Origin: Candidatus Nitrospira nitrificans
GTDB lineage: Bacteria > Nitrospirota > Nitrospiria > Nitrospirales > Nitrospiraceae
Length of the DNA: 64,000 nt
Reading direction: 5' to 3'
Assembly: GCF_001458775.1 (NCBI RefSeq)
Contig: NZ_CZPZ01000014.1
Location: forward strand, 1-64,000
Below the pieces are notes generated by a model. It made no database searches. It was not told where the DNA came from and saw nothing but the letters and a program-made list of their open reading frames with translations. Position numbers and translations under genes: made by a program. Positions 16,485 to 35,035 of this stretch are shown piece after piece. Numbering within the stretch: position 1 is the stretch's first letter; every line of letters starts with the position of its first letter.

Positions 16485-18059
16485 GTGGCAGAGATCACTA
16501 TGTTTCCACATGTGCGGATTGGGGCGGGTCGTACCGTGAGATGGGCCGCCATGGCGTTGGTGGCTCTGTTCTCACTGAGCGGGTGCCTCATCAAACCCCA
16601 TGCGTTGAACAAGGAAGACGTGAAGGCTCGAATGGTGAAAGATTTCCAGGCGATTTCATCGGTTGAAGAGCCGGTCGTGGGGCCGATCAGCCTCTATGAG
16701 GCCGTCGCGCGCGCGTTGAAGTACAACTTGGACGCGAAAGTCAAAACCATCCAAGTGCAGCTGGCGCATCAACAGCTCAATATTGCGCACTATTCCTTGC
16801 TCCCCCAGCTCTCGGCCAATGCCGGGTTTGATGGGCGTAATAACTTCGCCGGTGGTGTCGGACAATCGATCGTCACCGGCCGCCAAGCGGTTGAACCGTT
16901 CACCTCCGCCGAGAAGAACATCGTCTCCGGGAATCTTGCTTTGAGTTGGGACGTGCTGGATTTTGGGTTGTCGTTCGTACGTGCGCAACAGGCCGCCGAC
17001 AACGTGATGATCGCCGAGGAGGAAAAACGGCGGATCGCCGTCCGCCTCGTACAGGAAGTTCGCAGCGCCTACTGGCGAGCCGTGAGCGCGGAACGGGTGC
17101 TGCCGCGGATCCAGTTCTTGAATGAATCGGTCACCAAGGCGTTGACGAGCGCCCAACGCATCGTCGATCAAAAGCTGCAGGCTCCGCTGACTCCGCTCAA
17201 CTATCAACGGGATCTGCTGAATACTCAGCGGGAGGTGCGACGACTGTTTCGTGAATTCAGTACGGCCAAAACACAATTGGCCTCTATGATGGGGTTGCCG
17301 CCGGGAACGCCGTTTGACCTGGTCATACCTCCGCGGGAAACCGTGGTGCCGGTGATCAACTTGGACAGCGAAAAGATGGAAGAACAGGCGCTCATGCTCA
17401 GGCCTGAGCTGCGCGCCATTGATTACAAGAAGCGTATCAATGCCAAGGAGGTCAAGGCCGTCTTCTTGGAGCTGTTCCCCAGTCTCAAAGTTTCATTCGG
17501 TGGGTATTACAACAGCAACAGTTTCCTTTTCTATCAAAATTGGTTGACCTATGCGGCGCAGGTCAGCTGGAATTTACTGTCTGTGTTTCGAACGCCGGCT
17601 AAGCTCAAGGCGATCGAAGCCCACGGACACATGTTGGATGCCCAAAGTATGGCGTTGAGCTTGTCCATTCTGACGGAGGTGCACGTCGGCGCGGCGCAGT
17701 TCGTCCACGCCAAAGAGGAATATCAGGATGCGCGGAATTATCAGCGAACACAGGCGGCGATCGTCGAGCACACAAAGAATATGTGGATCACGCAAAGGAC
17801 AAACGATCTCACGTTGATCCGAGAGCAAGTCAATGATGTGGCCGCCGATGTGCGATTGGACGCCGCGCGATCGGGATTGGAAACAGCGTACGCCACTTTG
17901 ATGGCGTCGCTCGGAGAGGAGGCCGTTCCAGCGGCGCCAGGCGAACAAAGCCTGGCTCAACTCGCCGATTCGATCAGACAATATTGGGAACCCAGTGGGT
18001 TTACGATGTCGGAGGAGGAAAGGAGCTCGGCCGGTCATGCGATACCAGTGGCGCAATAG
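16485..18059 (+). CDS. TolC-family outer-membrane channel lipoprotein
   Basis: A 524-residue outer-membrane efflux channel. A lipoprotein signal (MALVALFSLSGC) near residues 22-34 suggests lipidation, as in NodT-type channels. Two long helical hairpin repeats follow, e.g. SLYEAVARALKYNLDAKVK and SAYWRAVSAERVLPRIQFL, then LRPELRAIDYKKRINAKE and WNLLSVFRTPAKLKAIEA. The start is a GTG at 16485; an in-frame ATG at 16500 is an equal alternative. It overlaps the HlyD gene by 23 bases. As the exit duct of an envelope-spanning complex it probably works with the adaptors encoded next. No ABC or RND pump gene accompanies it. Confidence 0.9.
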   Translation: MAEITMFPHVRIGAGRTVRWAAMALVALFSLSGCLIKPHALNKEDVKARMVKDFQAISSVEEPVVGPISLYEAVARALKYNLDAKVKTIQVQLAHQQLNIAHYSLLPQLSANAGFDGRNNFAGGVGQSIVTGRQAVEPFTSAEKNIVSGNLALSWDVLDFGLSFVRAQQAADNVMIAEEEKRRIAVRLVQEVRSAYWRAVSAERVLPRIQFLNESVTKALTSAQRIVDQKLQAPLTPLNYQRDLLNTQREVRRLFREFSTAKTQLASMMGLPPGTPFDLVIPPRETVVPVINLDSEKMEEQALMLRPELRAIDYKKRINAKEVKAVFLELFPSLKVSFGGYYNSNSFLFYQNWLTYAAQVSWNLLSVFRTPAKLKAIEAHGHMLDAQSMALSLSILTEVHVGAAQFVHAKEEYQDARNYQRTQAAIVEHTKNMWITQRTNDLTLIREQVNDVAADVRLDAARSGLETAYATLMASLGEEAVPAAPGEQSLAQLADSIRQYWEPSGFTMSEEERSSAGHAIPVAQ

Positions 18060-18816
18060 CGTGATGGTGCCGGTGTTCCTTGCCGCCGTCGTGGGTGTCC
18101 CTTCGACCGGATGGTCGAAAGGGGACCAAACGGCTCACATCACACGGGTGGATCATGGTGTCGCGCGCGGAATCGTCAAGGCGGCGGCACAGGCGGTGCT
18201 CTATGCTCAAGTCCAGGGACGCGTCAGCATGCTTCCATACAAGGAAGGGCAACGGTTCGAAAAAGGGCACATGCTCGTCCAAATCGACTGTGACAAGTAC
18301 CAGGCTGAGCTGGCGGTCGCCATCGCCGAACACGAGGTCAAAGACAAAGTGTACAAGAACAACGTCGAACTCGGGAAACTCAATGCCGTCAGTAACCTCG
18401 ACCTGGAAACGTCGGAGGCGGAAGCCAAAAAGGCATCGGCTTCGATTCGTGTCGCGGCGGTCAATGTGAAAGGGTGCCAGATTGCGGCTCCATTCGGCGG
18501 CCGTGTCGTCAGTGTGATGGTCAATGAACATGAGAATGTGTTTCCCAACGACAAGTTGATCAGTTTGTTGGATGACAGCAGCCTGGAGATCGAGCTGGTG
18601 CTGCCGTCCTCATCACTGTCCTGGCTCAAGCGGAAATCGCCGTTTACCTTTGTCGTAGATGAGACTCGCCGGAAGTATCCGGCCAGGATCAAAGAAATCG
18701 GGGCGTCGGTGGATGCCGCCAGTCAGACAATCAAGGTGATAGGGGCCTTCGAGAAATTACTGCCGGAGGTCTTGGCCGGGATGAGCGGCACGGCGCAATT
18801 CGTAGAGCAACCGTAA
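18037..18816 (+). CDS. HlyD-family periplasmic adaptor protein
   Basis: A 259-residue membrane-fusion protein. It has a cleavable-looking signal (VMVPVFLAAVVGVPSTGWS), a biotinyl-lipoyl-like half-motif (LYAQVQGRVSMLPYKEGQ) and a short coiled-coil hairpin. The second half-motif is CQIAAPFGGRVVSVMVNEHE, followed by a beta-barrel. Such adaptors bridge inner-membrane machinery to TolC. I chose ATG 18037, downstream of GGAGGAGGAAAGGAG, over an in-frame start at 17995 inside tolC. The next gene follows after three bases. Confidence 0.85.
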   Translation: MRYQWRNSVMVPVFLAAVVGVPSTGWSKGDQTAHITRVDHGVARGIVKAAAQAVLYAQVQGRVSMLPYKEGQRFEKGHMLVQIDCDKYQAELAVAIAEHEVKDKVYKNNVELGKLNAVSNLDLETSEAEAKKASASIRVAAVNVKGCQIAAPFGGRVVSVMVNEHENVFPNDKLISLLDDSSLEIELVLPSSSLSWLKRKSPFTFVVDETRRKYPARIKEIGASVDAASQTIKVIGAFEKLLPEVLAGMSGTAQFVEQP

Positions 18817-18819
18817 ACG

Positions 18820-20187
18820 ATGGCCACGACAGTAGAACCCACCACACAACAGCTTCCAACGCTGATTCACCTGGCGGCCCTCACGCACCTGGAGGGGCAG
18901 ATCCGCGCGGCCAAAACGATCCAAGAGCTGCAGTTTCTCTCCGTCAACGAAACCAGACGGTTGATTCCGTATGAGCAGGCCTTTCTCCTCAGTAACCTGA
19001 GTCGGGGGGACGAGGCGTATCGTGTGTTGAATGCGTCGAGCGTCGCCGTCGTGGATCGCGATGCCCCAATGATCGTGTGGCTCGAACAGGCGGTGCAGGC
19101 GCTTCGTCGTGCCGGCGCTCCGAGCGAGCAGCCGATGGTCGTCACGGAAGAGCTGCTGCCTGAATCGCTTCGCGGTGGCTGGCGGGAATTTGTGAAGGGG
19201 CAGGTCTTTTGGTGTCCCTTACAACATCCGGACGAAACGCTCCTGGGAGCATGGTGGTTTGAGCGGGACTTTTCATGGCAAGAGAACGATGTGGCGATCG
19301 TCCATCGGTTGGCTGGGAGCTATGCGTATGCCTGGAAGGCCCTGTCGAGGAAGGAACGAAGTTGGTCGAAGAAGATCAAGCGTCCCACCTGGTGGCTGCT
19401 TCCCGTGGCGCTGATTGCGGCCCTCTGTCTCCCGATCCGGATTTCCGCCGTGGCGCCGGTGAAAGTCATGGCGAAAGACCCGGTGGTCGTAAGCGCGCCG
19501 ATCGACGGCGTCATTGCCGACGTGCCTGTGCATCCGAACCAAATGGTGCAAGCAGGGACCACGTTGTTTCGATACGAAGACACCAACCTGCGAAATCAAT
19601 TTCTGGTCGCAGAGAAACAATTGACCGTCGCTCGAGCAGAACGGAGCCAAGCCATCCAAGGGGGGTTCGGCGATCCGCAGCGCAAGGCCGAGGTGCCGCT
19701 GAGAGAAGCGGAGATGGATCTCCGGCAAACGGAGCTGACGTATGCGAAAGAAATGCTCGATCAAGTTGAAGTGAGCGCGCCGAAGGCGGGCCTGCTTCTC
19801 TATTCCGAGAAATCCGATTGGACCGGCCGGCCTGTCACCGTCGGTGAGCGGATCATGGAAATCGCCGATCCGAAGCAGATCGAATTGCGGATTGATCTGC
19901 CGGTGGCCGATGCCATCGTGCTCAAGGACGGAGCCGATGCCTTGATATTTCTCAACGCGCTCGCGTTGGAATCGTTTCCGGCAACGATCGTCCATGCCGG
20001 CTACCATGCGGAAGTGTTGCCGGGCGACATCCTCGCCTACCGCGTCACTGCGCAACTCGCACAGCCGGATCCGCGCATCCGTATCGGCTGGCAAGGCACA
20101 GCCAAGGTATATGGCGAACAAGGACCGCTCGCCTACTTGCTCCTGCGCAGGCCGCTGATGGCGCTTCGACAATGGATAGGCTGGTAG
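18820..20187 (+). CDS. Membrane-anchored HlyD-type adaptor with GAF-like N-terminal domain
   Basis: A 455-residue protein. Residues 1-185 are cytoplasmic and resemble a degenerate GAF-like fold (ELQFLSVNETRRLIPYEQAF, then GAWWFERDFSWQENDVAIVH). A transmembrane helix (WWLLPVALIAALCLPIRI) lies near 190-207. The periplasmic part holds HlyD elements: VVVSAPIDGVIADVPVHPNQ, a helical hairpin, VSAPKAGLLLYSEKSDWTG and a barrel domain. The spacing of three bases on both sides makes it part of one operon with the adaptor and the M50 gene. It probably forms the inner-membrane side of the export complex; a sensory role for the GAF-like part is inference. Confidence 0.8.
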   Translation: MATTVEPTTQQLPTLIHLAALTHLEGQIRAAKTIQELQFLSVNETRRLIPYEQAFLLSNLSRGDEAYRVLNASSVAVVDRDAPMIVWLEQAVQALRRAGAPSEQPMVVTEELLPESLRGGWREFVKGQVFWCPLQHPDETLLGAWWFERDFSWQENDVAIVHRLAGSYAYAWKALSRKERSWSKKIKRPTWWLLPVALIAALCLPIRISAVAPVKVMAKDPVVVSAPIDGVIADVPVHPNQMVQAGTTLFRYEDTNLRNQFLVAEKQLTVARAERSQAIQGGFGDPQRKAEVPLREAEMDLRQTELTYAKEMLDQVEVSAPKAGLLLYSEKSDWTGRPVTVGERIMEIADPKQIELRIDLPVADAIVLKDGADALIFLNALALESFPATIVHAGYHAEVLPGDILAYRVTAQLAQPDPRIRIGWQGTAKVYGEQGPLAYLLLRRPLMALRQWIGW

Positions 20188-20190
20188 GCC

Positions 20191-22332
20191 ATGATGAACC
20201 CGGGATCACCTGACGCCAAATCGCAGGAACACAAGCTTCCCCCGCTTCGCTCGAACCTCCAATTCAATCGCGGAACCCCGACCCCCGACGGCGTGCCGAC
20301 TTGGACGATCGTGGATCCCATTCGCAACCGGTATTTCCAGATCGAGTGGCCGGTTTATCAGATGATTCAGCGATGGAATGCCGGCACGATCGAGAAGCTC
20401 CATGCCGCGATGGCACGTGAGACGACCTGTCGGACGACCGCCGAGGACGTGGAAGACTTAGTGAAGTTCCTGTATACGAACAATTTGACCGAACAATCCG
20501 CCAGCGGCAAGCATACCGACTACCAAACCCAGGCCCAAGCCGGCCAGCATAATTGGCTGATGTGGTTGGTTCACCACTATCTGTTCATCAAGATCCCCCT
20601 GGTCCATCCGCACAATTTCCTCAGCGCTACCTTGCCGATCGTGGCACCGCTGTACACGGCGACGGCCGGCTGGACGTTCGGCGCTATCGGGCTGATTGGG
20701 CTGATCCTCGTCGGCCGCCAATGGGATGCGTTTGTCTCGACGTTTCTCTATTTCTTCAACTGGCACGGCGCGATTCTCTATGGTCTCTCGCTTGGCGTGA
20801 TCAAGGTGGTTCACGAGCTGGGCCATGCCTATACGGCCACGCGATTTGGGTGCCGCGTTCCCACCATGGGCGTAGCCTTCATGGTCATGATGCCGGTCCT
20901 CTACTCCGACGTGTCGGACTCCTATCGCCTCACTTCAAAACGGAAACGCCTGTTGATTGCGGCAGGGGGTGTCATTGCCGAGTTGGGGCTGGCTGCCGTC
21001 GCATTCTTCGCCTGGGGATTTCTGCCTGAAGGCACCGCACGAAGCATCGCGTTCATCGTCGCCACGACCAGCCTGGTGATGAGCCTCGCGGTCAATCTCA
21101 ACCCGCTTATGCGTTTCGACGGCTACTATGTCCTGGCGGATGGGTTAGGGATTCCCAACCTGCAAGACAGAGCCTTTGTGTTTGGACAATGGAAGCTGCG
21201 TACCCTGCTCTTTGACCACCAGAGCGCACCGCCGGAGTCGGTATCGGCTCGCATGCGGCAGACCATGGTGGCCTACGCGTGGGCGATCTGGCTGTACCGT
21301 CTCATTCTGTTTACCGGCATTGCCGTCATGGTGTACCACTACTTTTTTAAAGCGCTCGGCATCATTCTCTTTCTCGTCGAGATTGTGTGGTTCATCGCCA
21401 TGCCGATCGCGCGCGAAATGACGGAGTGGTGGAAAAACCGTACCCTCTATGCCGCATCGGCCCGCACCTGGGGAACAGTCGCTTGCGCGAGTGTGGTGCT
21501 CGTGCTCACACTCGTGCCACTGCGGACGAGCATTTCTATTCCGGCCGTCCTTCACGCCTCGTCCTATGCCACCATCTTTGCGCCGACGCCGGGGCGTCTC
21601 CGACAAGTATTGGTGCACGACGGGCAGGTGGTCAAAGCAGGAGACGCTCTCGTGATCCTGGAGAATCCATCATTGGAGAAGGAAGTCCACCTGGCCGAAA
21701 CCAAAGTCGAGAAATGGGAGTATCGGCTCGGACGCATGGCGGGCTACGGTCAAGATCGTGATCAACGACAGGTCATTGGGGAGTCACTGCGAGCCGTGCT
21801 TGCAGAACTGACAGGGTTGGAAGCGAAACGTGACAACTTGATCTTGAAGGCTCCGATCACGGGGATCGTCCGAGATCGGGCCGATTCACTGACTGTAGGC
21901 CGGTGGATCGACCGGAAACTGCCTGTGGCCTATCTGATCGACGGCACCCATGTCGAGATTGAAGGCCTCGTGCCGGTTGATGAATTGGCCTATGTCGAAG
22001 TCGGGCAACCGGCACGATTCATCCCCTTGGATTTGACCAGGCCATCCATCGAGGCGCGTGTCACAGAGATTGCCGAAGTGGATGAACGTGAGTTTACCCT
22101 GCCGTACCTGGCGTCGATCTATGGCGGCGATGTGCCGGTGCGCAAGGATGACAAGGACCGGCTGCGTCCCGAGATCTCGGTCTATCGTGTGCGGTTGCAG
22201 GTCGATCAGGCAGCCTCGCCTGTCGAGCAAGCCACTGTCGGCCATGTCCAGATCCAGGGCCAGCCATCCAGCGTGGCGCGGAGGGTTTGGGATCAGACGG
22301 TCTCGGTCTTGATCAGGGAAAGCGGGTTCTAG
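20191..22332 (+). CDS. M50 site-2 protease/HlyD fusion with PqqD-like N-terminus
   Basis: A 713-residue inner-membrane protein. Residues 10-95 resemble a PqqD/RRE-type winged fold (YFQIEWPVYQMIQRWNAGTI). The site-2 protease domain follows, with zinc motif HELGH at 208-212 and the third ligand Asp310 in LMRFDGYYVLADG, plus about ten membrane helices. From about residue 460 a HlyD-type domain appears: FAPTPGRLRQVLVHDGQVV, a coiled coil, and ILKAPITGIVRDRADSLTVG. M50 proteases cut substrates within the membrane. Coupling one to an adaptor and TolC, without an ATPase, suggests proteolytic release of exported proteins. The likely substrates are the two anchored repeat proteins encoded next. Confidence 0.85.
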   Translation: MMNPGSPDAKSQEHKLPPLRSNLQFNRGTPTPDGVPTWTIVDPIRNRYFQIEWPVYQMIQRWNAGTIEKLHAAMARETTCRTTAEDVEDLVKFLYTNNLTEQSASGKHTDYQTQAQAGQHNWLMWLVHHYLFIKIPLVHPHNFLSATLPIVAPLYTATAGWTFGAIGLIGLILVGRQWDAFVSTFLYFFNWHGAILYGLSLGVIKVVHELGHAYTATRFGCRVPTMGVAFMVMMPVLYSDVSDSYRLTSKRKRLLIAAGGVIAELGLAAVAFFAWGFLPEGTARSIAFIVATTSLVMSLAVNLNPLMRFDGYYVLADGLGIPNLQDRAFVFGQWKLRTLLFDHQSAPPESVSARMRQTMVAYAWAIWLYRLILFTGIAVMVYHYFFKALGIILFLVEIVWFIAMPIAREMTEWWKNRTLYAASARTWGTVACASVVLVLTLVPLRTSISIPAVLHASSYATIFAPTPGRLRQVLVHDGQVVKAGDALVILENPSLEKEVHLAETKVEKWEYRLGRMAGYGQDRDQRQVIGESLRAVLAELTGLEAKRDNLILKAPITGIVRDRADSLTVGRWIDRKLPVAYLIDGTHVEIEGLVPVDELAYVEVGQPARFIPLDLTRPSIEARVTEIAEVDEREFTLPYLASIYGGDVPVRKDDKDRLRPEISVYRVRLQVDQAASPVEQATVGHVQIQGQPSSVARRVWDQTVSVLIRESGF

Positions 22333-22355
22333 AATACAGACGTGATCGCGCCAGT

Positions 22356-22473
22356 CAGCTAGTTAGTGGAGGTTAAGGCACATTCGTTTCGTCGATACCT
22401 TCTCGCACCGGACAGAAATTTGCTCGGTTTCAAGAGGGTCTCCAGCATCGACCGTCTTGAGCCGATGAAGACC
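22356..22473 (+). promoter_or_regulatory. Duplicated leader upstream of the first repeat-protein gene
   Basis: A 118-base segment, beginning CAGCTAGTTAG and ending TGAGCCGATGAAGACC, closely matches 25924-26039 upstream of the second repeat-protein gene. The end lies 33 bases before the ATG here and 32 bases there. Shared blocks include GCACATT, CCGGACA, GGTTTCAAGAGG/GGTTCAAGAGG and CAGCA. It may be a common promoter or 5' untranslated control element. Confidence 0.6.
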
Positions 22474-22506
22474 TGACAGGCCATCTCAATTCCCAGGTAC
22501 GCCGTC

Positions 22507-25500
22507 ATGCTTTTTCGTAAGAAGCCAAAACCGACCTCAGCGGATATCAAGCCCCAGCCGGCTCGAGAGACGCCCGAGACTCCGAGAACAAAACAATCCC
22601 TGCTTTCACTCGAACCGCGACTCATGTTCGATGCAGCCGCGGCAACCACGGCGGCCGAGGTGAATCAAGAACAAGTCGCGCAGGAGCAAGCCGAGTCGGC
22701 TGTGTCCGCGGAAGGCAGTGGCGAGCCAAACATGGGAGTGAGTGAGTCACAAGCACTGCTTCAAGCCATTATGACCTATAACTCCGGCGAGTCCACGACA
22801 GAAGTGGTCTTCGTCGATCCGACCGTGCCCAATTACCGAGAACTCCTGAACGGGATGAACCCCAACATTGAAGTGATCATGTTCGACGGTGGGCAAGACG
22901 GGGTCGAGCAGATGGCAAGCGCGCTGGCCGGACGCACCGGTATCGACGCCATTCACGTGATATCACATGGTGACGTCGGCGCGCTGCAGCTCGGCACCGG
23001 CACGCTCAACATCGACAGTATGTCGGGACAGTACGTCGACGAACTCGCCACCATCCGACAGGCGCTGTCAGGGCAGGCCGACATCCTCGTCTACGGCTGC
23101 GACTTTGCGGAAGGGGACGTGGGGCAGGCTGCCGTCAACCAGCTTGCGTTGTTAACGGGGGCCGATGTCGCGGCCAGCACTGACGACACGGGGTATGCCG
23201 GATTGGGCGGCGATTGGGACCTGGAGATTCAAACAGGGACCGTCGAAACAGAGGTGGCCATCGACTACCATACTCAGGTTGATTGGGTCGGCCTGCTTGC
23301 CGGTGAAACGCCTCCGACCATCACGAACTTGAGTGGTGACACCCGGGCATACAGCGAAGGGGCGGGGGCGGTGGTCATTGAGAGCGGCAACGCGGTGGTG
23401 GCGGATGTGGATAGCACGAACTTCGACACCGGGACCCTCAGCGTCTCGATTCCGGCCGGGGGCGACCCGGCCGAGGACGTGCTGAGCATTCGGCATCAAG
23501 GGACCGGGGTGGGGCAGATCGGGGTGAGCGGCAGCACCGTGACCTACGGGGGCGTGACCATCGGGACAGTTACGGGGGGCAGCGGCGGCAGCAATCTCGT
23601 CATCACGTTCAACGCCAGCGCCACGCCGACGGCGGTCACGGCGCTGGTGAGGAACATCACCTATCAGAACACCGACACGGCTGCGCCGACCACGGGGGCG
23701 CGCACCGTGCGGTTTGCGCTGACCGATGGCGATGGCGGCGCCAGTCCGACCTATGACACGACGGTGACGGTCACGGCCGTCAACGATGCGCCGACAGATC
23801 TTTCATTGTCGGGCGACACGGTGGCGGAGAATGCCAGTAATGGTACCGTGGTGGGAATCGTCAGCGGGACGGACCCGGACAGCGGGGACGCTAAGACGTA
23901 TAGCTTGACGGATACGGCCGGCGGCCGCTTTGCGATCAACAGTGCGACGGGTGAGATCACGGTGGCCGATGGCAGTTTGTTGAACTACGAAACAGCCATG
24001 AGTCATAGCGTGACGGTGCGGGTGACGGATAGCGGGGGCTTGACCTATGACGAAGCCTTCACGATTAACCTGATAAACGTGAACGAAGCGCCGACGGGGG
24101 CCGATGCGACCGTGACCGTCACGGAGGATGCAGCGCATACGTTCACCAGCGGCAACTTTGGGTTCAGCGACGTGGACGCCGGGGACAGTCTGAGCGCGGT
24201 GCGGATCGACACGCTGCCGGGGGCCGGCATGCTCACGCTCTCGGGGACTTCCGTGACGGCAGGACAGATCATCACGGTGGCCGATCTTACAGCGGGCAAC
24301 TTGGCCTTTACACCATCGGCCGATGCTAATGGGACGGGCTATGCCACCTTCACCTTCTCTGTGCGGGACAGCAACAATGCCTACGATGCCACGCCCAATA
24401 CCCTGACCATCGATGTCACGCCGGTCAACGATGCGCCCATGGTGGCGGTGAACTCCGGAAGCACGGTTGCAGAAGGCGGGACCGATACGATCGGCAGTGG
24501 CGAGTTAACCGTGACGGACGTCGAGCATGCGGCGGCGCAGTTGACCTATTCCATCGGAACGGGTCCGGCGTATGGACGGCTGGAGCTCACAACCGCTCCT
24601 GGAGTTTCGACGAGTACGTTCACCCAAGCCGATATTGCCGCGAATCGTCTGGTCTATGTGCACGACGGATCTGAAACCACCAGCGACAGTTTCACGTTTA
24701 CTGTAAGTGATGGGGCAGGGGGAACACTGGGCGCGACGACTATGACTCTGACGATCACCCCCGTGAATGATACTCCCACCATTACGAGTGGCGGTGGTGC
24801 ATCAACTGCGGCAGTCAATGTGGCGGAGAATGTCAGTGCCGTCACGATTGTGACCGGCGCTGACGTGGATCTGCCGGCGCAGGCCCTCACGTACGACATC
24901 AGTGGTGGGCCGGATCAGGCGTTGTTCACGATCGATGCCGTCACCGGTGCGCTGAGTTTTACCGCGTCTCCCAATTTCGAGGTGGCCACCGATGCGAACG
25001 GCGATAATGTGTATGTTGTGCAGGTACAAGTGATCGATAGCCAAGGGGCCAGCACGACACAGACCATTCAGGTGACGGTGACGGACGTGGCAGAGAGGAC
25101 CCCAACGACTTCGCTTATCCCACCAGTGCTGCTGCCGACAACACCGCCGAGTCAGACTGGTCCAGGGCTGGTTGCTTCAAGTCCATTGAGTCCGAGTCCA
25201 GCCGAACCATCGACAGACGCATTTTCTCCGTCTCCGATATTGCCCGGCTCACGCGTGAGGACAGCGGACTTTCGTCCGCCGAGCCCGGTCCTGCTCGCGA
25301 CCGATTCACAGGCCGACCGCAGTGATTCCCGCCTCTCCGACGACCTAAGAAAGCCGATGAATCCGGCCAAGGACCAGCCCCTCTTTACGGTGCTGCCGGT
25401 TGAGCCGGCTCCGGTACTCGTGCCTGAACCGCCAGAAGGACAGCCGTCCGTGAGCGAGCTCTTACTGGCCAAGCTCGACGAGCTGGCCGTCTCGTTGGAT

Positions 25501-25923: not shown

Positions 25924-26039
25924 CAGCTAGTTAGCGGCGGTCAGAGCACATTGTTCCCCTACCTAATCCACTGTGCCGGACAAAATCTGCATGGTTCAAG
26001 AGGATATTCAGCACTGAACGAAATGAGCCGATGAAGACC
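25924..26039 (+). promoter_or_regulatory. Duplicated leader upstream of the second repeat-protein gene
   Basis: Second copy of the leader at 22356-22473, with the same start (CAGCTAGTTAG) and end (TGAGCCGATGAAGACC) and the same distance to the start codon. Conservation of both ends with divergence in the middle suggests function rather than mere recent duplication. Confidence 0.6.
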
Positions 26040-26071
26040 CGAAGCGGTACTTGAGTAGAGACGGCCTACGT

Positions 26072-29000
26072 ATGTTCGGGCGAAACAAACACGCCATGTC
26101 ACAGCAAAAGAAGAAGCCCAAGACGGCTTCCAACGGGTCAGAGGCGCCTCGCCCGAAACTGTCGTTCCTTTCGCTCGAATCTCGTCTCATGTTCGATGCA
26201 GCGGCCTCGGCCACAGCGGCCGAGGTCAATCAAGAACAAGTCGCGCAGGAGCAGGCCGAGTCGGCGGTGTCCGCGGAAGGCGGCCGCGAGCCAACCGCGG
26301 CAGAGGATGAGTCGCAAGAGGTGCTTCAAGCCATCGCCTCCTACAACCCAGGCGAGACCACGATAGAGGTGGTCTTCGTCGATCCGACCGTGCCCAACTA
26401 TCGAGAACTCCTGAGCGGGATGAATCCCGATATGGAAGTGATCATGCTCGACGGCGGGCAAGACGGGGTCGAACAGATGACGGCGGCCTTGTCCGGAAGG
26501 ACCGGCATCGATGCCATTCATGTGATCTCACATGGTGCCGCCGGCACGTTGCAGCTCGGCACGGGCACATTGACCACGGAGTCGATGTCCGGGGAATACG
26601 CCGACGAACTCGCGACGATCCAACAAGCGCTTTCAGAGCAGGCCGACATCCTCATTTATGGCTGCGACTTCGCGGAGGGAGAAGTAGGACAGGCCGCCGT
26701 CAACCGACTCGCGGCGCTCACCGGCGCCGATGTGCAAGCCAGCAACGATTTCACAGGGCACATGTCTCTCGGCGGTGACTGGGATTTTGAGGTTCGGACC
26801 GGCGCGATCGAGGCACGAATTGCGATCGATGTACAGACGCAGGCGAACTGGGTTGGGCTGTTGGCTGCGCCGGTGTTGGATGCCTCAAAAAGTCCCACGT
26901 TGAGTTCCATCGGCGAAGACGCCGGCGCGCCGTCGGGAGCGGTGGGAACGCAAGTGTCTTCTCTCGTCGATTTCGCGAGTCCATCGGGTCAAGTGGACAA
27001 TGTCACCGATGCGGACAGCGGTGCGCAGCTCGGTATTGCAATTACGGGCGCCAATACCAGCAACGGGACATGGTGGTACAGCACGAACAATGGGTCGACC
27101 TGGAATGCCCTTGGATCTGTCAGTGATGCCGGCGCTCGCCTCCTGGCCGCCGACGGCAACACCCGTCTCTATTTCCAAGCCAATGCGAATTACACCGGCA
27201 CCATGAGCGATGCCATTACCCTTCGGGCTTGGGATCGAACGAGCGGAACGAACGGCGGCACCGCCAATCTATCTACGACCTCCACGGCGATTGATCAGTT
27301 CAACACGGTCTCTTATTCCAACAATAACGGAACGGTCAATTGGAGTGGCCCTTGGCAGGAGATCGGTGAAAGCGACGGGACCGGCGCTGGGATGGTCATG
27401 GTGAACAGTTATGCCGGTCTATCGGGGAACTCGTTGCAGATAGAAACGGACTTCCTATCGCGGGGCGCCGGCCGGTCGATCGATCTGAGCACGGCATCGT
27501 CGGCGACTCTGTCATTCGACTATATCCGTCAACATGGTGGCGGAACCAATGGAGTGGTTTCGGTTGAGGTCTATAATGGAAAGACATGGACCACCCTCGA
27601 TACCCTTCGCATCAATGCGACCGACAGCGCGGCGCAGAGTTACAAAGTCGACATCAGCGCCTACGCCAATGCAAACACGCAAATTCGATTTATCGTCACC
27701 GGAAGAGACTCGATGGGTCGGGTGCATGTTGACAATATCCAAGTCGAGTCGACCGGCGTGGGCGGCGGTGCGACCGCTTACAGCAGCGCGAGTGACACGG
27801 CAAGTCTAACCGTCACGGCGGTTAACGACGCTCCGGTGTTAGACAATAGTGGCGTCATGACCTTGACGAGCATCACGGAGGATGCCACCAATAATAACGG
27901 GCAAACAGTCGCTTCGATTATCGCCAGTGCGGGAGGCGATCGCATTACAGATGCCGACGCCGGGGCTTCGGAAGGAATCGCCATTACGTCCCTCACTAGC
28001 GGCAGCGGAACCTGGCAGTACAACACCGGTTCCGGCTGGACGAACATCGGGACCGTGTCCGAATCGTCGGCTCTCTTGCTGCGCGCGACCGATTCGATAC
28101 GGTTCGTCCCCAACGGCGAACGGGCTGACAGCGGGAGCATCAGTTTCCGCGCCTGGGATCGAACGTCCGGCACGGCCGGGAGCAAGGTCGCCACAGGAAC
28201 GACGACGACCGTGACGGACCAATTCAACAGTGCCTCGTTCGGCAACAATAACGGAACGCAGAACTGGACAGGCGCCTGGATCGAAACCGATGCGGGCGGG
28301 GCGGGAGTGGCGTCCGGCAGCATTCAAATTAGCTCCAATCAGTTGCGTTTTGATGCCGATCGCGTGGGCGACAACATTGCGCGAGAGGTCAATCTCAGCG
28401 GCACGACCGGCTCGACCCTGTCATTTTCTTATAATAACACCCTGAGCGGAGCAGACCGGGTCGAAGTGCGAATCTCAAGTAATGGAGGGGCCAATTACAC
28501 GACGCTGACCAACGGCACATTCTCCGGATCGCTCCAGACCGGAAGCGGGTCCGCCAGTTTCGATATTTCGGCCTACGCCTCTCCGAACACGCGCATTCAG
28601 TTTATTGTCACCGGCGTCGGTGGGAACGCTCGGTTCTATGCGGATAATGTGCAGGTGACCTCTACGTCCGTCTCTGCTACCGGCGCGTTCAGCTCCGCCG
28701 CAGATACCGCCTCGATTACGGTCACGGCGGTCAACGACGCGCCGGTACTCACTCCTTTTGGTCCCACGACCACGACGACCGAAGGCGCTCCCACTGTTTC
28801 GGGAAGAGTGAGCGACTTGTTGCTGTCCAGTATGACGGATGTCGATAGCGGTGCCGTGGAGGGGATCGCCCTGTTCGGCCTCGGAGGTGCCGGTGGAACG
28901 CTCGAGTACAGTCTCGACGGCGTGACGTGGTCGAGTGTCGGAAGCGTATCGACAGGCAGTGCCTTGTTGCTCAGGGCCACGGACTATCTTCGCATGACTC

Positions 29001-32000
29001 CCGATACCGACAACGGCGGGACGCTGCAGGTCGATTACCGAGGCTGGGACCAAACGGCTGGAACAGCCGGGACGAAGGTGGATGTCTCGGTGACCGGCGG
29101 AACGACGGCATTCAGCATCGCGAGCGACCGCGCGGTGACCACGATCACGGCGGTCAACGATGCGCCGACCATCACGAGCTTGAGCGGCGACAGTCTGGCG
29201 TATAGCGAAGGCGCGGGGGCGGTGGTCATCGAGCAAGGTGGCAATGCGCTGGTGGCCGATGTGGATTCGACGAACCTCGACACCGGCACGTTGACCGTCT
29301 CCATCCCGTCCGGGGGGGACAGTGCCGAAGACGTGCTGAGCATCCGCAACCAAGGGACCGGGGCGGGGCAGATCGGGGTGAGCGGCAGCACTGTGACCTA
29401 TGGCGGTGTGGCCATCGGGACGTTCACCGGTGGCACTGGGGGGAGCAATCTCATCATCACGCTCAACAGCAGCGCCACGCCGACCGCGGTGACGGCGCTG
29501 GTGAAAAACATCACATACGAAAATACGGATACGGCATCGCCGACGACGGGCGCGCGAACCATACGCTATGTGCTTACCGATGGGGATGGCGGCACCAGTA
29601 CCAACTACGACACGACGGTGACGGTCACGGCCGTCAACGATGCGCCGACCGATCTGAGCCTGTCGGCCAATACCGTAGCCGAAAACTCAGCCAATGGCAC
29701 CGTCGTCGGCACGGTGAGCGGGACGGATGCCGATACCGGCGATACCAAGACCTACTCTTTCACGGACAATGCCGGCGGGCGGTTCGCGATCAACAGTTCA
29801 ACGGGCCAGATTACCGTGGCCGATGGCAGTCTGCTCAACTACGAAGCGGCGACGAGCCATGGCGTCACGGTGCGTGTGACCGACGCCGGTGGCCTGACCT
29901 ACGACGAGACCTTTACGATCGCTGTCACCAATGTCAATGAAGCGCCTGTCGCTGCCGACGACCGTGCAGGTCTCCGATTTGACGGTGTGGATGATTTTGT
30001 GGATATGGGCAGCGGAGCGACCTACGAGGTCACGGATACCGTTACGATGGAGGCCTGGATCAACCGGGAACCTTCGTCACAAGCCACGCAAATAATCATG
30101 AATAAGGAAGGGGAGTACGAGATTGGTTTGGATGTGGATGGGAGTCTGAAATGGGCATTTGCGAATACAAACCCAGGCTGGGCCTGGCATGACACGGGTG
30201 TGGTGATCCCGGTGCATACCTGGACCCATATCGCGGTGACCTATGATCATGGAACTATCACGAGTTATGTGGACGGGGTTGCGGTGGAGATCTTCGCCGG
30301 ATCAGGCACGATCGGCGATGCTCATCCGACCAAAGATACGCTTCGGATTGGTGGTCGCGAGAACAATCCGGCAGACCAGTATTTTTCCGGCCAGATCAGC
30401 GAAGCGCAGGTGTGGAATGTGGCGCGAACCGCCGGAGAGATTGCCGGTGACCGTAACGGCAATCTCTCCGGTACAGAAACCGGATTACTAGGCTATTGGA
30501 AGTTCAATGAGAATTCCGGGACCAATGCCGATAATCTGGCGGGGAACTCAGACGGCACGCTGGGCGGCGGAACCACCGGCCAAACCCCTCAGTGGTCGAC
30601 GTATCGTGTCAGCGAGGACAATACCCTTTCGATCGCAGGGCCAGGAGTTTTGGGGAACGACCACGATGTGGACGGCGACGCGTTATCGGCTGTCATTGTC
30701 ACCGGACCCTCGCATGCCGGCTCGTTCACGCTGAATTCTGACGGCAGCTTCTCATATACGCCGGCCGCGGACTTCTCCGGAACCGATTCCTTTACCTATC
30801 GCGTCAGTGACGGAGCTAATTTCTCCAATATTGCTACCGCCTATATTCAGGTAGATTCGGCGAATGATGCCCCGACGGATCTGAGTCTCTCCGCGAACAC
30901 CGTGGCCGAGAACGCAGCCAACGGGACGGTGGTGGGGACGGTCAGTGGGACGGATGTCGACACGGGTGATACGAAGACCTATTCGTTGACCGACACAGCC
31001 GGCGGGCGGTTTGCGATCAACAGTTCCACCGGCCAGATCACGGTGGCCAACGGTAGCTTGCTCAATTACGAGAATGCGGCCAGCCATAGCGTGACCGTGC
31101 GGGTGACCGACAGCGGTGGGCTGACCTACGACGAGACGTTCACGATTAATTTGGCCGACATGAATGAAGCGCCGACGGGCACCGACGCCGCGATTACCAT
31201 CGCCGAAGATAGCTCCTATACCCTGACCACCGGGAACTTCGGCTTCAGCGATGTGGATGCAGGCGACAGTTTGAGTGCCGTACGCATGGATACGATTCCA
31301 ACCGCCGGCTCCTTGACCCTGTCGGGGGTGGCGGTGACGGCGGGGCAGGTGGTGAGCGTGGTGGACCTCACGGCGGGCAACCTGGTGTTCACGCCCTCCG
31401 CCAACGCGACCGGCGCCGGCTATGCGAATCTGACCTTCTCGGTGCGCGATGCCAACAACGCCTACGATGCGGCTCCCAATACGCTCACGTTCAACGTCAC
31501 GGCGGTCAACGATGCGCCGACTCGCACAGCCGGCACTGTCAGTAATCTCACGGTGTCGGAGGACGCCGGTCTGGCATCTTTAGGCTTGGGAGGGGTGGCC
31601 TACAGTCCGGGTGGAGGTGCCGATGAGAGCGCGCAGATATTGACGTATGCCGTCACAGTAGTTCCCTCGGCCGGTGTCGGCGATGTTTTCTTGGCAGATG
31701 GCACCACGCGGGTGACCGTTGGGTCCTATACGTTGGCGGATATTCAAGGCATGCAGTTCAAGCCGGCGGCGAACGCCAGCGGGGTCACGGCGTTTCAGTT
31801 TAATGTTTATGACTCGGGCGGGACGGCCAACGGCGGGGCCAATACGATCAGCCAGTTTATCCAGATCACCCTGACGGCGGTCAACGATGCGCCGACAATC
31901 ACCAACTTGAGCGGCGATGGTTTGAGCTATAGCGAAGGCGCGGGCGCGGTGGTCATCGAACAAGGCGGCAATGCGCTGGTCGCCGATGTGGATTCGACCA

Positions 32001-35000
32001 ATCTGGACACCGGCACGTTGACGGTCTCTATTCCGGCCGGGGGCGACAGTGCAGAAGATGTGCTGAGCATCCGCAACCAAGGCACCGGGGCGGGCCAGAT
32101 TGGGGTGAGCGGCAGCACTGTGACCTATGGCGGTGTGGCCATCGGGACGTTCACCGGTGGCACTGGGGGGAGCAATCTCATCATCACGCTCAACAGCAGC
32201 GCCACGCCGACGGCGGTGACGGCGTTGGTCAAAAACATCACATACGAGAATACCGACACGGCAGCGCCAACGACGGGCGCCCGGACTGTCCGGTATGTCC
32301 TCACCGATGGAGATGGCGGCACCAGTGCCAACTACGACACCACCGTGACGGTCACGGCGGTCAATGATGCCCCGACCGATCTGAGCCTGTCGGCCAATAC
32401 CGTAGCCGAAAACTCAGCGAACGGCACCGTGGTCGGGACGGTGAGCGGCACCGATGTGGACACCGGCGACACCAAGACCTACTCGTTCACGGACAATGCC
32501 GGCGGGCGCTTTGCGATCAATAGCAGCACGGGCCAGATTACCGTGGCCGATGGCAGCCTGCTGAACTACGAAACGGCGACGAGCCATGGCATCACGGTTC
32601 GCGTCACCGACAGCGGCGGGCTGACCTATGATGAGACCTTTACGATCAATCTCACGAACGTGAATGAAGCCCCGACCGGCGCGGACGCTGCGATTACCAT
32701 TATCGAAGATAGCTCCCATACCCTGACCACCGCGAACTTTGGCTTTAGCGACGTGGATGCGGGGGACAGTTTGAGCGCCGTGCGGATCGATACGCTGCCG
32801 GGCGCCGGGAGCTTGACTCTCTCGGGTGTGGTCGTGACGGCGGGCCAGGTCGTCTCTGTGGCGGATATCACGGCGGGGAACTTGGTCTTCACGCCAGTGG
32901 CGGATGCGACCGGCACCGGCTATGCGAACCTGACCTTCTCGGTACGCGATGCCAGCAACGCCTACGATGCGGTCCCCAATACCCTCACCTTCGACGTCAC
33001 GGCGGTGAATGATGCGCCGATCAACACCGTCCCCGGGGCGCAGACGGTCAATGAAGATACCGCCCTCGCGATCAGCGGCGTGAGCGTCAATGACGTCGAT
33101 GGCAATCTGAGCACTGTGCAACTAGCGGTAGGCAACGGCACGCTGGCTGTGACTCTCTCGGGCGGGGCGACGATCAGCGCGGGGAACAACGGCACGAACA
33201 GCCTGACGTTGAGCGGTAACCAAGCGGACATCAACACGACCTTGGCCACCTTGGTCTATCAAGGTACGCCCAACTTTAACGGCAGTGACACGCTGACCGT
33301 CACGAGCACCGATGCCAACAGCGGCAGCGACGTGGATACCGTCGCGATCACCGTCACGGCGGTGAACGATCCGACCGTGGTGACGGGGGGCACGAGCGGG
33401 ATGGGCGACGAAGACACGACTCTGACGGGGACCCTGACGGCGACCGATGTTGAGGGCTTGAGCGACGGCACGGTGTTTACCGTGACCACGAGCGCGACGA
33501 ACGGGACGGCGAGCATCGATCCGGCGACGGGCCTGTGGAGCTACACCCCGACCGCGGACTTTCACGGGACGGACAACTTCACCGTGACGATTACTGATGA
33601 TGCGGGCACCAGCATCACCCAAGTGATCAGCGTGACCGTGACACCGGTCGATGATGCGCCAATCTTGAGTGTCAACACCAGCAGCACAGTGACTGAAGGC
33701 GGGACCGATACGATTGACAGCAGCGATTTAGTAGTGACGGACATTGAGCAGACCGCCGCGCAGTTGACCTATTCCATCGGAACGGGTCCGGCGTATGGAC
33801 GGCTGGAGCTCACAACCGCTCCTGGTGTTTCTGCCCTCACCTTCACCCAAGCCGATATTGCCGCGAATCGTCTGGTCTATGTGCACGACGGATCTGAAAC
33901 CACCAGCGACAGTTTCACGTTTACTGTAAGTGATGGGGTAGGGGGAACACTGGGCGCCACGACCATGACCCTGACGATCACCCCCGTGAATGATACTCCC
34001 ACCGTTACGAGTGGCGGTGGTGCATCAACTGCGGCGGTCAATGTGGCGGAGAATGTCAGTGCCGTCACGATTGTGACCGGCGCGGATGTGGATCTGCCGG
34101 CGCAGACGTTGACCTACGGCCTCAGCGGAGGTGCGGATCAGGCGCGTTTTACGATCAATGCCGTGACGGGTGCGCTGAGTTTCACCTCACCGCCTGATTT
34201 TGAAGTGGCTACTGATGTCAATGGCGACAACATCTATGTCGTCCAGATTCAAGTAACTGACAGCCAAGGGGCCAGCACCATACAGACTATTCAGGTGACG
34301 GTGATGAATGTGGCAGAAGGAGCTCCGCCCGCACCGCTTCCGCCGCCGGTCCTTCTGCCCACGACTCCGACAGGCTCAACTGGTCCGGGACCTATATCGC
34401 CGAGCCCAGCGGAGTCACCTGTACAGACAACCGAGGTCCCAACCACATTCCCAGTGGGGTCAAGCCCTAGCGCGAGTCCACCAGAATTCACTCCGACTGG
34501 TGCGATGCCGTCGGAAACGGAACGTCTGAATCCGATCAGGTCCGAGGAACCGAGGAAAACGATCGATTTGGCGAAGGATTCGGTCCCCTTCTACTGGATC
34601 GACGAAACCGGTAGGCTGCTCTTGACCGGTACTCCCGTGGAAGCGACTCCGACGCCGGAATTTGAACCAGTCGAGCCATCTCAGTCGGTGAGCGATCTCC
34701 TGTTCTCCAAGCTCGATGACATGACGGCCTCGCTGGAGCAGGCGATGGACCTGTCCCAAGAACAACATGCGATTATAGTGCGGATCGCCGCGTTGACGGG
34801 GACCACCTTGTCGTCCGGGTTCATCGTATGGACGCTTCGTAGCGGGACTCTGTTGGCGAGCTGTCTGGCGACCATGCCGGTCTGGCGGCACTTCGACCCT
34901 CTCCCTGTGTTAGGAGGAAGCGGCAGCGAGCGGGAACGCCGGCGCAAAGAAGCCGAGCGAGATCGGCAAGCAGAAGCCACCGAATTCAAGGGGCTGAAAC

Positions 35001-35035
35001 ATGTGCTCGACTCTCCGCCTGACCCCAAGCCCTAA
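26072..35035 (+). CDS. Giant LEPR-motif/DUF4347 cadherin-like repeat protein with LamG domain and C-terminal anchor (about 2987 aa)
   Basis: I chose ATG 26072 because it places LESRLMFDAA, His154 (SHG) and Cys198 (YGC) at exactly the same residues as in the paralog at 22507. After DUF4347 (98-265) come three jelly-like modules with WDRTSGT/WDQTAGT and two carbohydrate-binding-like inserts. Then follow cadherin-like repeats and a LamG/concanavalin-like domain at about 1298-1500 (LRFDGVDDFVDMG to LGYWKFNENSG). More repeats, a CSPG-type repeat and a Pro-rich linker come next. A transmembrane helix (AALTGTTLSSGFIVWTLRSG) lies near 2902-2930, then VWRHFDPLPVL and a highly charged tail. Adhesin or matrix function is inference from the domains; export probably uses the adjacent complex. 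Confidence 0.85.
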   Translation: MFGRNKHAMSQQKKKPKTASNGSEAPRPKLSFLSLESRLMFDAAASATAAEVNQEQVAQEQAESAVSAEGGREPTAAEDESQEVLQAIASYNPGETTIEVVFVDPTVPNYRELLSGMNPDMEVIMLDGGQDGVEQMTAALSGRTGIDAIHVISHGAAGTLQLGTGTLTTESMSGEYADELATIQQALSEQADILIYGCDFAEGEVGQAAVNRLAALTGADVQASNDFTGHMSLGGDWDFEVRTGAIEARIAIDVQTQANWVGLLAAPVLDASKSPTLSSIGEDAGAPSGAVGTQVSSLVDFASPSGQVDNVTDADSGAQLGIAITGANTSNGTWWYSTNNGSTWNALGSVSDAGARLLAADGNTRLYFQANANYTGTMSDAITLRAWDRTSGTNGGTANLSTTSTAIDQFNTVSYSNNNGTVNWSGPWQEIGESDGTGAGMVMVNSYAGLSGNSLQIETDFLSRGAGRSIDLSTASSATLSFDYIRQHGGGTNGVVSVEVYNGKTWTTLDTLRINATDSAAQSYKVDISAYANANTQIRFIVTGRDSMGRVHVDNIQVESTGVGGGATAYSSASDTASLTVTAVNDAPVLDNSGVMTLTSITEDATNNNGQTVASIIASAGGDRITDADAGASEGIAITSLTSGSGTWQYNTGSGWTNIGTVSESSALLLRATDSIRFVPNGERADSGSISFRAWDRTSGTAGSKVATGTTTTVTDQFNSASFGNNNGTQNWTGAWIETDAGGAGVASGSIQISSNQLRFDADRVGDNIAREVNLSGTTGSTLSFSYNNTLSGADRVEVRISSNGGANYTTLTNGTFSGSLQTGSGSASFDISAYASPNTRIQFIVTGVGGNARFYADNVQVTSTSVSATGAFSSAADTASITVTAVNDAPVLTPFGPTTTTTEGAPTVSGRVSDLLLSSMTDVDSGAVEGIALFGLGGAGGTLEYSLDGVTWSSVGSVSTGSALLLRATDYLRMTPDTDNGGTLQVDYRGWDQTAGTAGTKVDVSVTGGTTAFSIASDRAVTTITAVNDAPTITSLSGDSLAYSEGAGAVVIEQGGNALVADVDSTNLDTGTLTVSIPSGGDSAEDVLSIRNQGTGAGQIGVSGSTVTYGGVAIGTFTGGTGGSNLIITLNSSATPTAVTALVKNITYENTDTASPTTGARTIRYVLTDGDGGTSTNYDTTVTVTAVNDAPTDLSLSANTVAENSANGTVVGTVSGTDADTGDTKTYSFTDNAGGRFAINSSTGQITVADGSLLNYEAATSHGVTVRVTDAGGLTYDETFTIAVTNVNEAPVAADDRAGLRFDGVDDFVDMGSGATYEVTDTVTMEAWINREPSSQATQIIMNKEGEYEIGLDVDGSLKWAFANTNPGWAWHDTGVVIPVHTWTHIAVTYDHGTITSYVDGVAVEIFAGSGTIGDAHPTKDTLRIGGRENNPADQYFSGQISEAQVWNVARTAGEIAGDRNGNLSGTETGLLGYWKFNENSGTNADNLAGNSDGTLGGGTTGQTPQWSTYRVSEDNTLSIAGPGVLGNDHDVDGDALSAVIVTGPSHAGSFTLNSDGSFSYTPAADFSGTDSFTYRVSDGANFSNIATAYIQVDSANDAPTDLSLSANTVAENAANGTVVGTVSGTDVDTGDTKTYSLTDTAGGRFAINSSTGQITVANGSLLNYENAASHSVTVRVTDSGGLTYDETFTINLADMNEAPTGTDAAITIAEDSSYTLTTGNFGFSDVDAGDSLSAVRMDTIPTAGSLTLSGVAVTAGQVVSVVDLTAGNLVFTPSANATGAGYANLTFSVRDANNAYDAAPNTLTFNVTAVNDAPTRTAGTVSNLTVSEDAGLASLGLGGVAYSPGGGADESAQILTYAVTVVPSAGVGDVFLADGTTRVTVGSYTLADIQGMQFKPAANASGVTAFQFNVYDSGGTANGGANTISQFIQITLTAVNDAPTITNLSGDGLSYSEGAGAVVIEQGGNALVADVDSTNLDTGTLTVSIPAGGDSAEDVLSIRNQGTGAGQIGVSGSTVTYGGVAIGTFTGGTGGSNLIITLNSSATPTAVTALVKNITYENTDTAAPTTGARTVRYVLTDGDGGTSANYDTTVTVTAVNDAPTDLSLSANTVAENSANGTVVGTVSGTDVDTGDTKTYSFTDNAGGRFAINSSTGQITVADGSLLNYETATSHGITVRVTDSGGLTYDETFTINLTNVNEAPTGADAAITIIEDSSHTLTTANFGFSDVDAGDSLSAVRIDTLPGAGSLTLSGVVVTAGQVVSVADITAGNLVFTPVADATGTGYANLTFSVRDASNAYDAVPNTLTFDVTAVNDAPINTVPGAQTVNEDTALAISGVSVNDVDGNLSTVQLAVGNGTLAVTLSGGATISAGNNGTNSLTLSGNQADINTTLATLVYQGTPNFNGSDTLTVTSTDANSGSDVDTVAITVTAVNDPTVVTGGTSGMGDEDTTLTGTLTATDVEGLSDGTVFTVTTSATNGTASIDPATGLWSYTPTADFHGTDNFTVTITDDAGTSITQVISVTVTPVDDAPILSVNTSSTVTEGGTDTIDSSDLVVTDIEQTAAQLTYSIGTGPAYGRLELTTAPGVSALTFTQADIAANRLVYVHDGSETTSDSFTFTVSDGVGGTLGATTMTLTITPVNDTPTVTSGGGASTAAVNVAENVSAVTIVTGADVDLPAQTLTYGLSGGADQARFTINAVTGALSFTSPPDFEVATDVNGDNIYVVQIQVTDSQGASTIQTIQVTVMNVAEGAPPAPLPPPVLLPTTPTGSTGPGPISPSPAESPVQTTEVPTTFPVGSSPSASPPEFTPTGAMPSETERLNPIRSEEPRKTIDLAKDSVPFYWIDETGRLLLTGTPVEATPTPEFEPVEPSQSVSDLLFSKLDDMTASLEQAMDLSQEQHAIIVRIAALTGTTLSSGFIVWTLRSGTLLASCLATMPVWRHFDPLPVLGGSGSERERRRKEAERDRQAEATEFKGLKHVLDSPPDPKP
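29157..29644 (+). repeat. Long coding repeat unit, copy B
   Basis: Encodes YSEGAGAVVIEQGGNALVAD through RTIRYVLTDGDGGTS. It is nearly identical at DNA level to copy C at 31881-32368, and both are followed by the same cadherin-like unit (DLSLSANTVAENSANGTVVG). Confidence 0.8.
31881..32368 (+). repeat. Long coding repeat unit, copy C
   Basis: Same module as copy B, 2.7 kb downstream in the same frame. The long identical stretches (for example the block around 32100-32200 against 29375-29475) are possible sites of in-frame recombination. Confidence 0.8.
33660..34110 (+). repeat. CSPG-type coding repeat shared with 24440-24900
   Basis: The segment from QLTYSIGTGPAYGRLELTTA onward matches the paralogous gene nearly base for base over about 300 bases, across two separate genes 9.2 kb apart. 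This suggests gene conversion or recent duplication of the 3' parts. Confidence 0.75.

Follow-up and report, generated by a model that had tools for sequence, protein, structure and literature searches.

A TolC/HlyD/M50 protease operon lacking an ABC ATPase accompanies leader-bearing giant repeat proteins in Nitrospira and Proteobacteria

We analyzed a 64,000-nucleotide stretch of the Candidatus Nitrospira nitrificans genome (positions 1 to 64,000 of contig NZ_CZPZ01000014.1, part of a 4.12-Mb assembly), hereafter the window. It carries a four-gene operon encoding a TolC-family outer-membrane factor, an RND-type periplasmic adaptor, a GAF-like/HlyD adaptor, and a PqqD-like/M50 protease/HlyD fusion, followed by two genes for giant cadherin-like repeat proteins. 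The four duct genes travel with giant proteins that bear an N-terminal leader, and this association suggests that these proteins have an export route to themselves, one that brings no motor protein. From sequence comparison, we consider it probable that the operon is a dedicated exporter whose PqqD-like/M50 protein recognizes, and probably clips, the leader of giant cadherin-like surface proteins.

Results

Gene content of the operon and its presumed substrates

The genes and sequence elements of the system, all on the forward strand, are the following:

16485-18059, +: TolC-family outer-membrane factor (Pfam OEP, E = 3.1e-29, in two stretches; lipobox LSGC by inspection)
18037-18816, +: periplasmic adaptor, RND-type membrane fusion protein (TIGR01730, E = 2.4e-33; N-terminal signal by inspection)
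18820-20187, +: GAF-like domain/transmembrane segment/HlyD adaptor (HlyD_3, E = 2.2e-14)
20191-22332, +: PqqD-like/M50 intramembrane protease/HlyD fusion (Peptidase_M50, E = 1.7e-8; HlyD_3, E = 1.4e-14)
22507-25740, +: giant repeat protein 1, 1077 residues, presumed substrate (DUF4347, E = 1.1e-54; Cadherin_3, E = 2.2e-31)
22609-22634, +: leader LEPRLMFDA of giant protein 1 (pattern search and leader alignment)
25411-25638, +: C-terminal module of giant protein 1, its end diverged (51% identity to the protein 2 module over 76 residues)
26051-35035, +: giant repeat protein 2, 2994 residues as listed, presumed substrate (DUF4347, E = 2.6e-56; 13 Cadherin_4 stretches)
26174-26199, +: leader LESRLMFDA of giant protein 2 (pattern search and leader alignment)
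34640-34912, +: C-terminal module of giant protein 2, GTTLSSGFIVWTLRSGTLLAS...DPLPVL followed by a basic tail (hydrophobic segment)

Gene content and order agree with an earlier sequence-only reading of the window, as does its statement that the operon lacks an ABC ATPase and the large proteins lack RTX repeats: a Pfam scan of the operon proteins found no ABC transporter, and the last 600 residues of the two giant proteins contain 0 and 0 RTX nonapeptides. The likely start of the RND-type adaptor is the ATG at 18037, with GGAAAGGAG upstream and a 23-base overlap with tolC, and the second and third as well as the third and fourth genes are separated by 3 bases each. A promoter scan upstream of tolC returned 1 site versus 0.8 in shuffled sequences. 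Giant protein 2 probably starts at ATG 26072 rather than TTG 26051. Pfam detects cadherin/Big_9 repeats in both giant proteins. The sequence-only reading had assigned them a common N-terminal motif, labeled LEPR, and a C-terminal transmembrane helix. LExR is indeed present in both, at residue 35 in protein 1 and, as LESR, at residue 42 in protein 2, although the NCBIfam model LEPR-8K is below threshold for the former (14.2 of 17 bits) and unlisted for the latter; the putative membrane helix corresponds to a moderately hydrophobic segment near each C-terminus, with Kyte-Doolittle means over 19 residues of 1.51 and 1.65.

The M50/HlyD protein contains both HELGH and FDGYY. Its residues H208, E209, H212, and D310 are invariant in 15 of 15 diverse proteins of its own type (type A, defined below) and in 54 of 54 when a more distant sister group is included, and thus the hallmarks of M50 site-2 proteases, HExxH and a downstream aspartate, are present in the window protein and in all 54 aligned sequences. 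Homology to the sister M50/HlyD proteins extends over the full length (profile E = 3.7e-82, 688 columns). The genome holds one full M50/HlyD gene and two DUF4347 proteins, both in the window. It has a single copy of SecA on a different contig (open frame of 1037 amino acids), and no second SecA_DEAD protein is present in the window locus.

The GAF-like domain proposed earlier for the second adaptor has no Pfam GAF match; the assignment is supported by alignment of the N-terminal part to the sister GAF/HlyD profile (E = 3.8e-28) and by a Foldseek search with a structural model, in which the top matches were GAF domains (mean predicted local distance difference test score, pLDDT, of 43, informative for the N-terminal half only). 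Site-2 proteases often act in signaling, and this domain raises the question of whether the operon is a signaling or maturation device, combining GAF sensing with site-2-protease-like cleavage to control adhesin display or transcription while export proceeds otherwise. We regard that as decidedly unlikely, given that three HlyD modules and a TolC protein in one operon are duct parts and that no regulator was seen to recur beside the operon in the annotated loci.

Distribution of the operon and co-occurrence with giant proteins

Using the window M50/HlyD protein as a query, we searched 59 genomes, comprising the window's own and 58 relatives. Proteins 35-87% identical to the query, some of them in pieces, were defined as type A and occur in 24 of the 59 genomes. 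A second group with 25-28% identity was found at nine places, genome G020 has only a fragment of the gene, and G051 and G044 encode more distant M50-like proteins. In a tree of 47 M50 proteins, the type-A members (33) are set apart from the rest with a support of 1.0.

DUF4347 was detected in 23 of the 24 type-A genomes and in none of the 35 others (Fisher p = 1.7e-15, related species not being independent); G020 was counted among the 35 in this test and the next. A link between the ABC-less TolC/HlyD/M50 unit and giant proteins, as claimed from the window alone, is thereby upheld, and among the 59 genomes the M50/HlyD fusion was not regularly found without a LEPR/DUF4347 gene. In G019, the DUF4347 match is a fragment on another contig, and the operon-linked cargo has the leader and no DUF4347 match. 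The leader itself, searched as a degenerate DNA pattern, was present in 21 of the 24 type-A genomes and in 0 of the 35 others (Fisher p = 3.9e-13), and the reversed pattern, used as a control, in 0 of 59. The pattern missed G001 and G043, which have variant leaders (rows L040 and L064), and G021, which has none. One of its 37 matches, G025:C16, is a chance match in a 13-residue frame. Several genomes carry extra leader genes on other contigs (e.g., G006:C17 and G034:C78, with short frames at G019:C12 and G029:C110), and the machinery may thus handle additional cargo proteins. Leader genes of a single form, M/VFGF..KK...LEQRLMFDAA, lie on other contigs of several Nitrospira genomes (L122, L123, L124, L126, and L132, of which two are short frames) and possibly encode cargo served in trans.

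Beyond the genome set, 80 of 72,556 plasmid records matched the M50/HlyD query, with at least 80% of its length covered in 59 cases, and the gene was found in 24 of 5,426 complete Escherichia coli genomes, where 21 of 25 places are on plasmids. Machinery and giant repeat protein occur together in Nitrospirota and in Alpha-, Beta-, and Gammaproteobacteria, including E. coli plasmids. A giant repeat protein, TolC, an RND-type adaptor, an HlyD adaptor, and M50/HlyD form the recurring gene set in E. coli, Azospirillum, Kosakonia, Burkholderia, Variovorax, and Niveispirillum. The giant gene is placed between the adaptors in Eleftheria and Azospirillum thermophilum, and Azospirillum B510 has a lone M50/HlyD gene with the giant gene ~10 kb off. 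The Indioceanicola, Tistrella, Cupriavidus, and Caballeronia loci are unannotated and were judged from open reading frames (ORFs). None of nine annotated type-A loci has an ABC gene in the operon, and the type-A loci showed no SecA-like gene. The Variovorax cargo gene (CP063167.1:19413-68132, ending in L083) spans 48.7 kb and encodes ~16,239 residues; type II secretion genes lie immediately downstream of the operon (L083:20270-28900). In G043, a 455-residue protein, periplasmic ligand-binding-like by inspection, is encoded between TolC and the adaptor (L064:4261-5628).

DUF4347 as the sole marker of the system was rejected. It is present in 122 plasmid records, and six of the seven proteins opened on records without M50/HlyD lack the leader (Phaeobacter, Gloeothece, Rhizobium, Halotia, Dolichospermum, and Acaryochloris). 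For this control, 60 records matching M50/HlyD at 1e-30 were set aside, and seven DUF4347 proteins were taken from outside them, the search for M50/HlyD being confined to the records themselves; several of the remaining M50/HlyD-free records are from Azospirillum. RTX nonapeptides number 13 in the Phaeobacter, 25 in the Rhizobium, and 13 in the Dolichospermum protein, and 0, 1, and 4 in the others. The Rhizobium DUF4347 gene has a type I ABC gene in its vicinity.

N-terminal leader and C-terminal module of the cargo

In the leader, a basic stretch precedes the motif LExRxx[F/Y/L]D, after which come small residues (A or G). Burkholderia and Cupriavidus have the YD form and G043 the LD form, whereas in G001 the residue behind FD is V. 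The leader is present at 35 of 43 type-A loci, which are partly redundant since L032-L041 partly repeat genomes of the set. A regular expression identified 32 of these leaders, and three more (Variovorax, Niveispirillum, and A. thermophilum) were seen after fetching the gene start or, for A. thermophilum, reading a split ORF. At five of the remaining loci (L032, L038, L041, L060, and L084), the contig or record stops short of the expected leader position, and three loci lack the leader (L045, L047, and L059). The leader does not look like a classical signal peptide by sequence: its median hydrophobicity is 0.94 and 0 of 34 reach 2.0, compared to 29 of 36 TolC signals and 26 of 40 adaptor signals from the same loci.

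The C-terminal module was found in 16 of the 59 genomes, namely 15 of the 24 type-A genomes and G020. It was not found in the other nine type-A genomes, some of whose assemblies are cut there, and whole cargo proteins without it occur in G016, G024, G028, and, for one of two proteins, G032. All eight Proteobacterial ORFs inspected lack the module motif, L086 and L089 appearing frame-broken. C-terminal hydropathy does not split the groups, with values of 0.91-1.47 in Proteobacteria (1.47 in Kosakonia) and 1.12-1.81 in module-bearing Nitrospirota. Eight module-containing ORFs lie off the operon. Four of them run off a contig end and two are whole with a leader; the one in G034 begins 434 bases inside the contig start and is leaderless, and that of G019 is an 86-residue remnant.

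These data bear on the mechanism favored by the sequence-only reading, in which the M50 protease cuts the C-terminal membrane helix and frees an anchored giant protein through TolC, with the N-terminal leader as an alternative target. The module is well conserved where present, all 16 genomes that have it also have a type-A M50/HlyD gene or fragment, and its basic tail, by inspection, suggests an N-out/C-in topology. However, nine type-A genomes show no module, and the M50 catalytic residues are kept in the Proteobacteria whose ORFs lack it. Most of the whole cargo proteins without the module have other weakly hydrophobic ends. As a general mechanism, C-terminal anchor cleavage is thus weakened and appears unlikely to us, with cleavage of this kind possible for the Nitrospirota subset. 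Because the leader is common, the module patchy, and hydropathy undiscriminating, we place the predicted M50 action at the N-terminal leader, which is, judged by sequence, the shared feature of the cargo, and this second of the two targets fits better.

RTX nonapeptides were absent from the last 600 residues in all 22 type-A ORFs that were scored, a set that includes frame-broken ones. If an ABC exporter encoded elsewhere joined the TolC/HlyD set, the operon would be part of an ordinary split type I system, and the genome does contain 10 ABC_membrane matches, all on other contigs and none on the window contig. We nevertheless consider such a split system very improbable in view of the RTX-free cargo, the ABC-free annotated operons, and the N-terminal position of the conserved signal.

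Sister operon with a SecA-like ATPase

The group with 25-28% identity belongs to a homologous sister gene set in which GAF/HlyD and M50/HlyD are accompanied by TolC, one or two adaptors, and a SecA-like ATPase (~663 residues); large repeat proteins adjoin this set where the stretch extends that far. The SecA-like gene adjoins the sister M50/HlyD gene in nine of nine Nitrospira loci. Conversely, a second SecA above the cut-off was found in 8 of the 59 genomes, at nine places, each beside a sister M50/HlyD gene (split housekeeping genes, as in G004, were excluded). The L070 SecA-like protein gave matches to DEAD, preprotein cross-linking, and P-loop entries and contains Walker motifs; SecA_SW was not matched, which suggests that the protein may lack the SecY-engaging part. 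Thalassospira has the sister set and no SecA on the stretch.

Leaders similar to LExRxLLxAD were present in all six sister proteins read, from L070, L072, L073, Pseudosulfitobacter (LEPRFLLSAD), Thalassospira (IEPRILLSAD), and Alisedimentitalea (LEPRLLLAAD, upstream of the annotated start). The flavor of the leader tracks the M50 clade, being [F/Y/L]D in type A and LLxAD in the sister branch. Sister operons of the Nitrospira relatives (L070:3980-15571, L065-L069, and L071-L073) adjoin large proteins with ELWxxDGT or other repeats where these are reached. The Pseudosulfitobacter LEPR-XLL gene (NZ_CP085155.1:324509-363265, ending in L079) spans 38.8 kb and encodes ~12,918 residues. Two Rhodobacterales plasmids carry SapC-family genes at the sister operon or adjacent to it (L079:17260-18081 and L097:2058-2855).

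A locus of SecA_DEAD, GAF-HlyD, M50-HlyD, and HlyD genes was described in 2015 by Kamneva, Poudel, and Ward, who proposed SecA as the motor and M50 as the inner-membrane pore and called the biological role of the locus unknown (PMC4452313); a locus of this sister kind in Methylobacterium extorquens AM1 is named there. Sections 16 and 17 of that report name no substrate, and its main text does not contain the word cadherin; no mention of LEPR or Kamneva was found in the first 300,000 of the 747,799 characters of PMC8277102. The type-A operon shares with the 2015 locus homologous M50/HlyD and GAF/HlyD proteins, a further adaptor, sometimes TolC, and the lack of an ABC transporter, but no SecA-like gene was found with it, and its leaders carry [F/Y/L]D instead of LLxAD. 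By extension, the M50 domain of the window protein could act mainly as an inner-membrane pore for the polypeptide with catalysis secondary, as was argued for the SecA-linked locus (PMC4452313), and no other pore candidate is encoded in the operon. The zinc ligands and the catalytic glutamate, needless for a pure pore, are kept in all 54 proteins, which makes this an unlikely account of the M50 domain.

Genomic context

Seven relatives without the operon were compared at the site of its flanking genes, which encode a symporter and a penicillin-binding protein. These genes are ~1.0-1.2 kb apart in G018, G010, G031, and G003 and 3 kb apart in G030; no symporter gene was located on the stretch from G017. 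The interval between the two genes in G012 contains four fragments of tolC, interrupted by stops in every frame (L112:4153-4995), which are likely the relic of a lost operon. Neither the type-A M50/HlyD gene nor DUF4347 is present in any of the seven genomes, and operon and cargo were apparently gained or lost together. The penicillin-binding-protein-like and bactofilin genes at 35217-38072 of the window stay adjacent in the Nitrospira relatives compared, whether or not the operon is there.

Discussion

In the proposed mechanism, the cargo would be marked by its N-terminal leader. PqqD-like domains bind leader peptides in the pathways of ribosomally synthesized and post-translationally modified peptides (RiPPs), and the PqqD-like domain of the M50/HlyD protein may bind the leader here, which the M50 site would then cut in the membrane. 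The three HlyD modules and TolC would form the duct to the outside, regulated or gated by the GAF/HlyD protein. The inner-membrane step could be driven by the housekeeping Sec machinery or by another energy source, the sister branch usually bringing a SecA-like motor. In Nitrospirota, the C-terminal module with its basic tail may hold the protein in the membrane after export, and a further event would then be needed for its release.

Several observations weigh against this reading. The operon encodes no ATPase, and the inner-membrane step is therefore unexplained by it. The PqqD-like domain proposed by the sequence-only reading has no direct Pfam match in the window protein, and relaxing the threshold to E = 10 for residues 1-120 gave none either; the assignment comes from homology to the sister family, whose corresponding region aligns and whose M50/HlyD N-termini gave PqqD matches at 1.1e-4, 9.6e-4, and 0.02, all below the cut-off, with none for a fourth protein. 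An AlphaFold model of the M50/HlyD protein, built with 7 close sequences, had a mean pLDDT of 36.6 and was not used for a fold search. G021 has type-A machinery and neither DUF4347 nor the leader. The Phyllobacterium operon (L047:11797-20118) consists of HlyD and M50/HlyD genes without TolC and the first adaptor; its neighbor is an HrpK-domain protein without the leader, and a type I ABC exporter is encoded a few genes away. The Magnetospirillum M50/HlyD gene encodes 492 residues and lacks the N-terminus. Qingshengfaniella, the seventh control, has the leader LEQRIAFDAA and few RTX repeats on a plasmid without an M50/HlyD match, and just three of the six leaderless DUF4347 proteins contain many RTX repeats. 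Finally, three giant proteins of the sister branch have 11-27 RTX-like nonapeptides in the part seen, indicating that, when both branches are considered, a leader and RTX repeats can go together.

Comparison with known systems further delimits the proposed exporter. Type I secretion of RTX proteins and large adhesins employs HlyB/HlyD/TolC or LapBCE. The type-A system likewise has TolC, HlyD-type adaptors, and giant repeat adhesin-like cargo, whereas it has no ABC ATPase, its cargo no RTX repeats, and its conserved signal is N-terminal. RiPP-maturing M50 proteases (the daptide HExxH protease NF041824 and YydH/LiaK NF058609) share HExxH with the window protein, whose best NCBIfam match is NF041824 (residues 40-404, E = 1e-47); however, the window protein is far under the cut-off (163 of 300 bits), is fused to HlyD, and has giant proteins rather than peptides as neighbors. 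LEPR-XLL proteins (NCBIfam NF012209) resemble the cargo in carrying an N-terminal LExR on very large proteins. In contrast, the window proteins are sub-threshold or unlisted and have FDxA where the sister type has LLxAD.

More tentatively, and with odds we put below even, the type-A system may represent a distinct Gram-negative secretion pathway in which PqqD-like recognition of an LExR leader is followed by cutting by a duct-fused M50 protease and both membranes are crossed without a dedicated ATPase; the sister pathway would have a leader flavor of its own and use a SecA paralogue without detectable SecA_SW. The leader rule names cargo in both branches, gives a sequence signal that can be mutated, and offers a testable answer to the role of the SecA-linked locus. 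It also poses the question of how, with no dedicated motor, proteins ~800 to 16,000 residues long get through the inner membrane. As the machinery is found on soil-bacterial plasmids as well as in 24 of 5,426 E. coli genomes, the system may bear on surface adhesion and biofilm formation well beyond Nitrospira.

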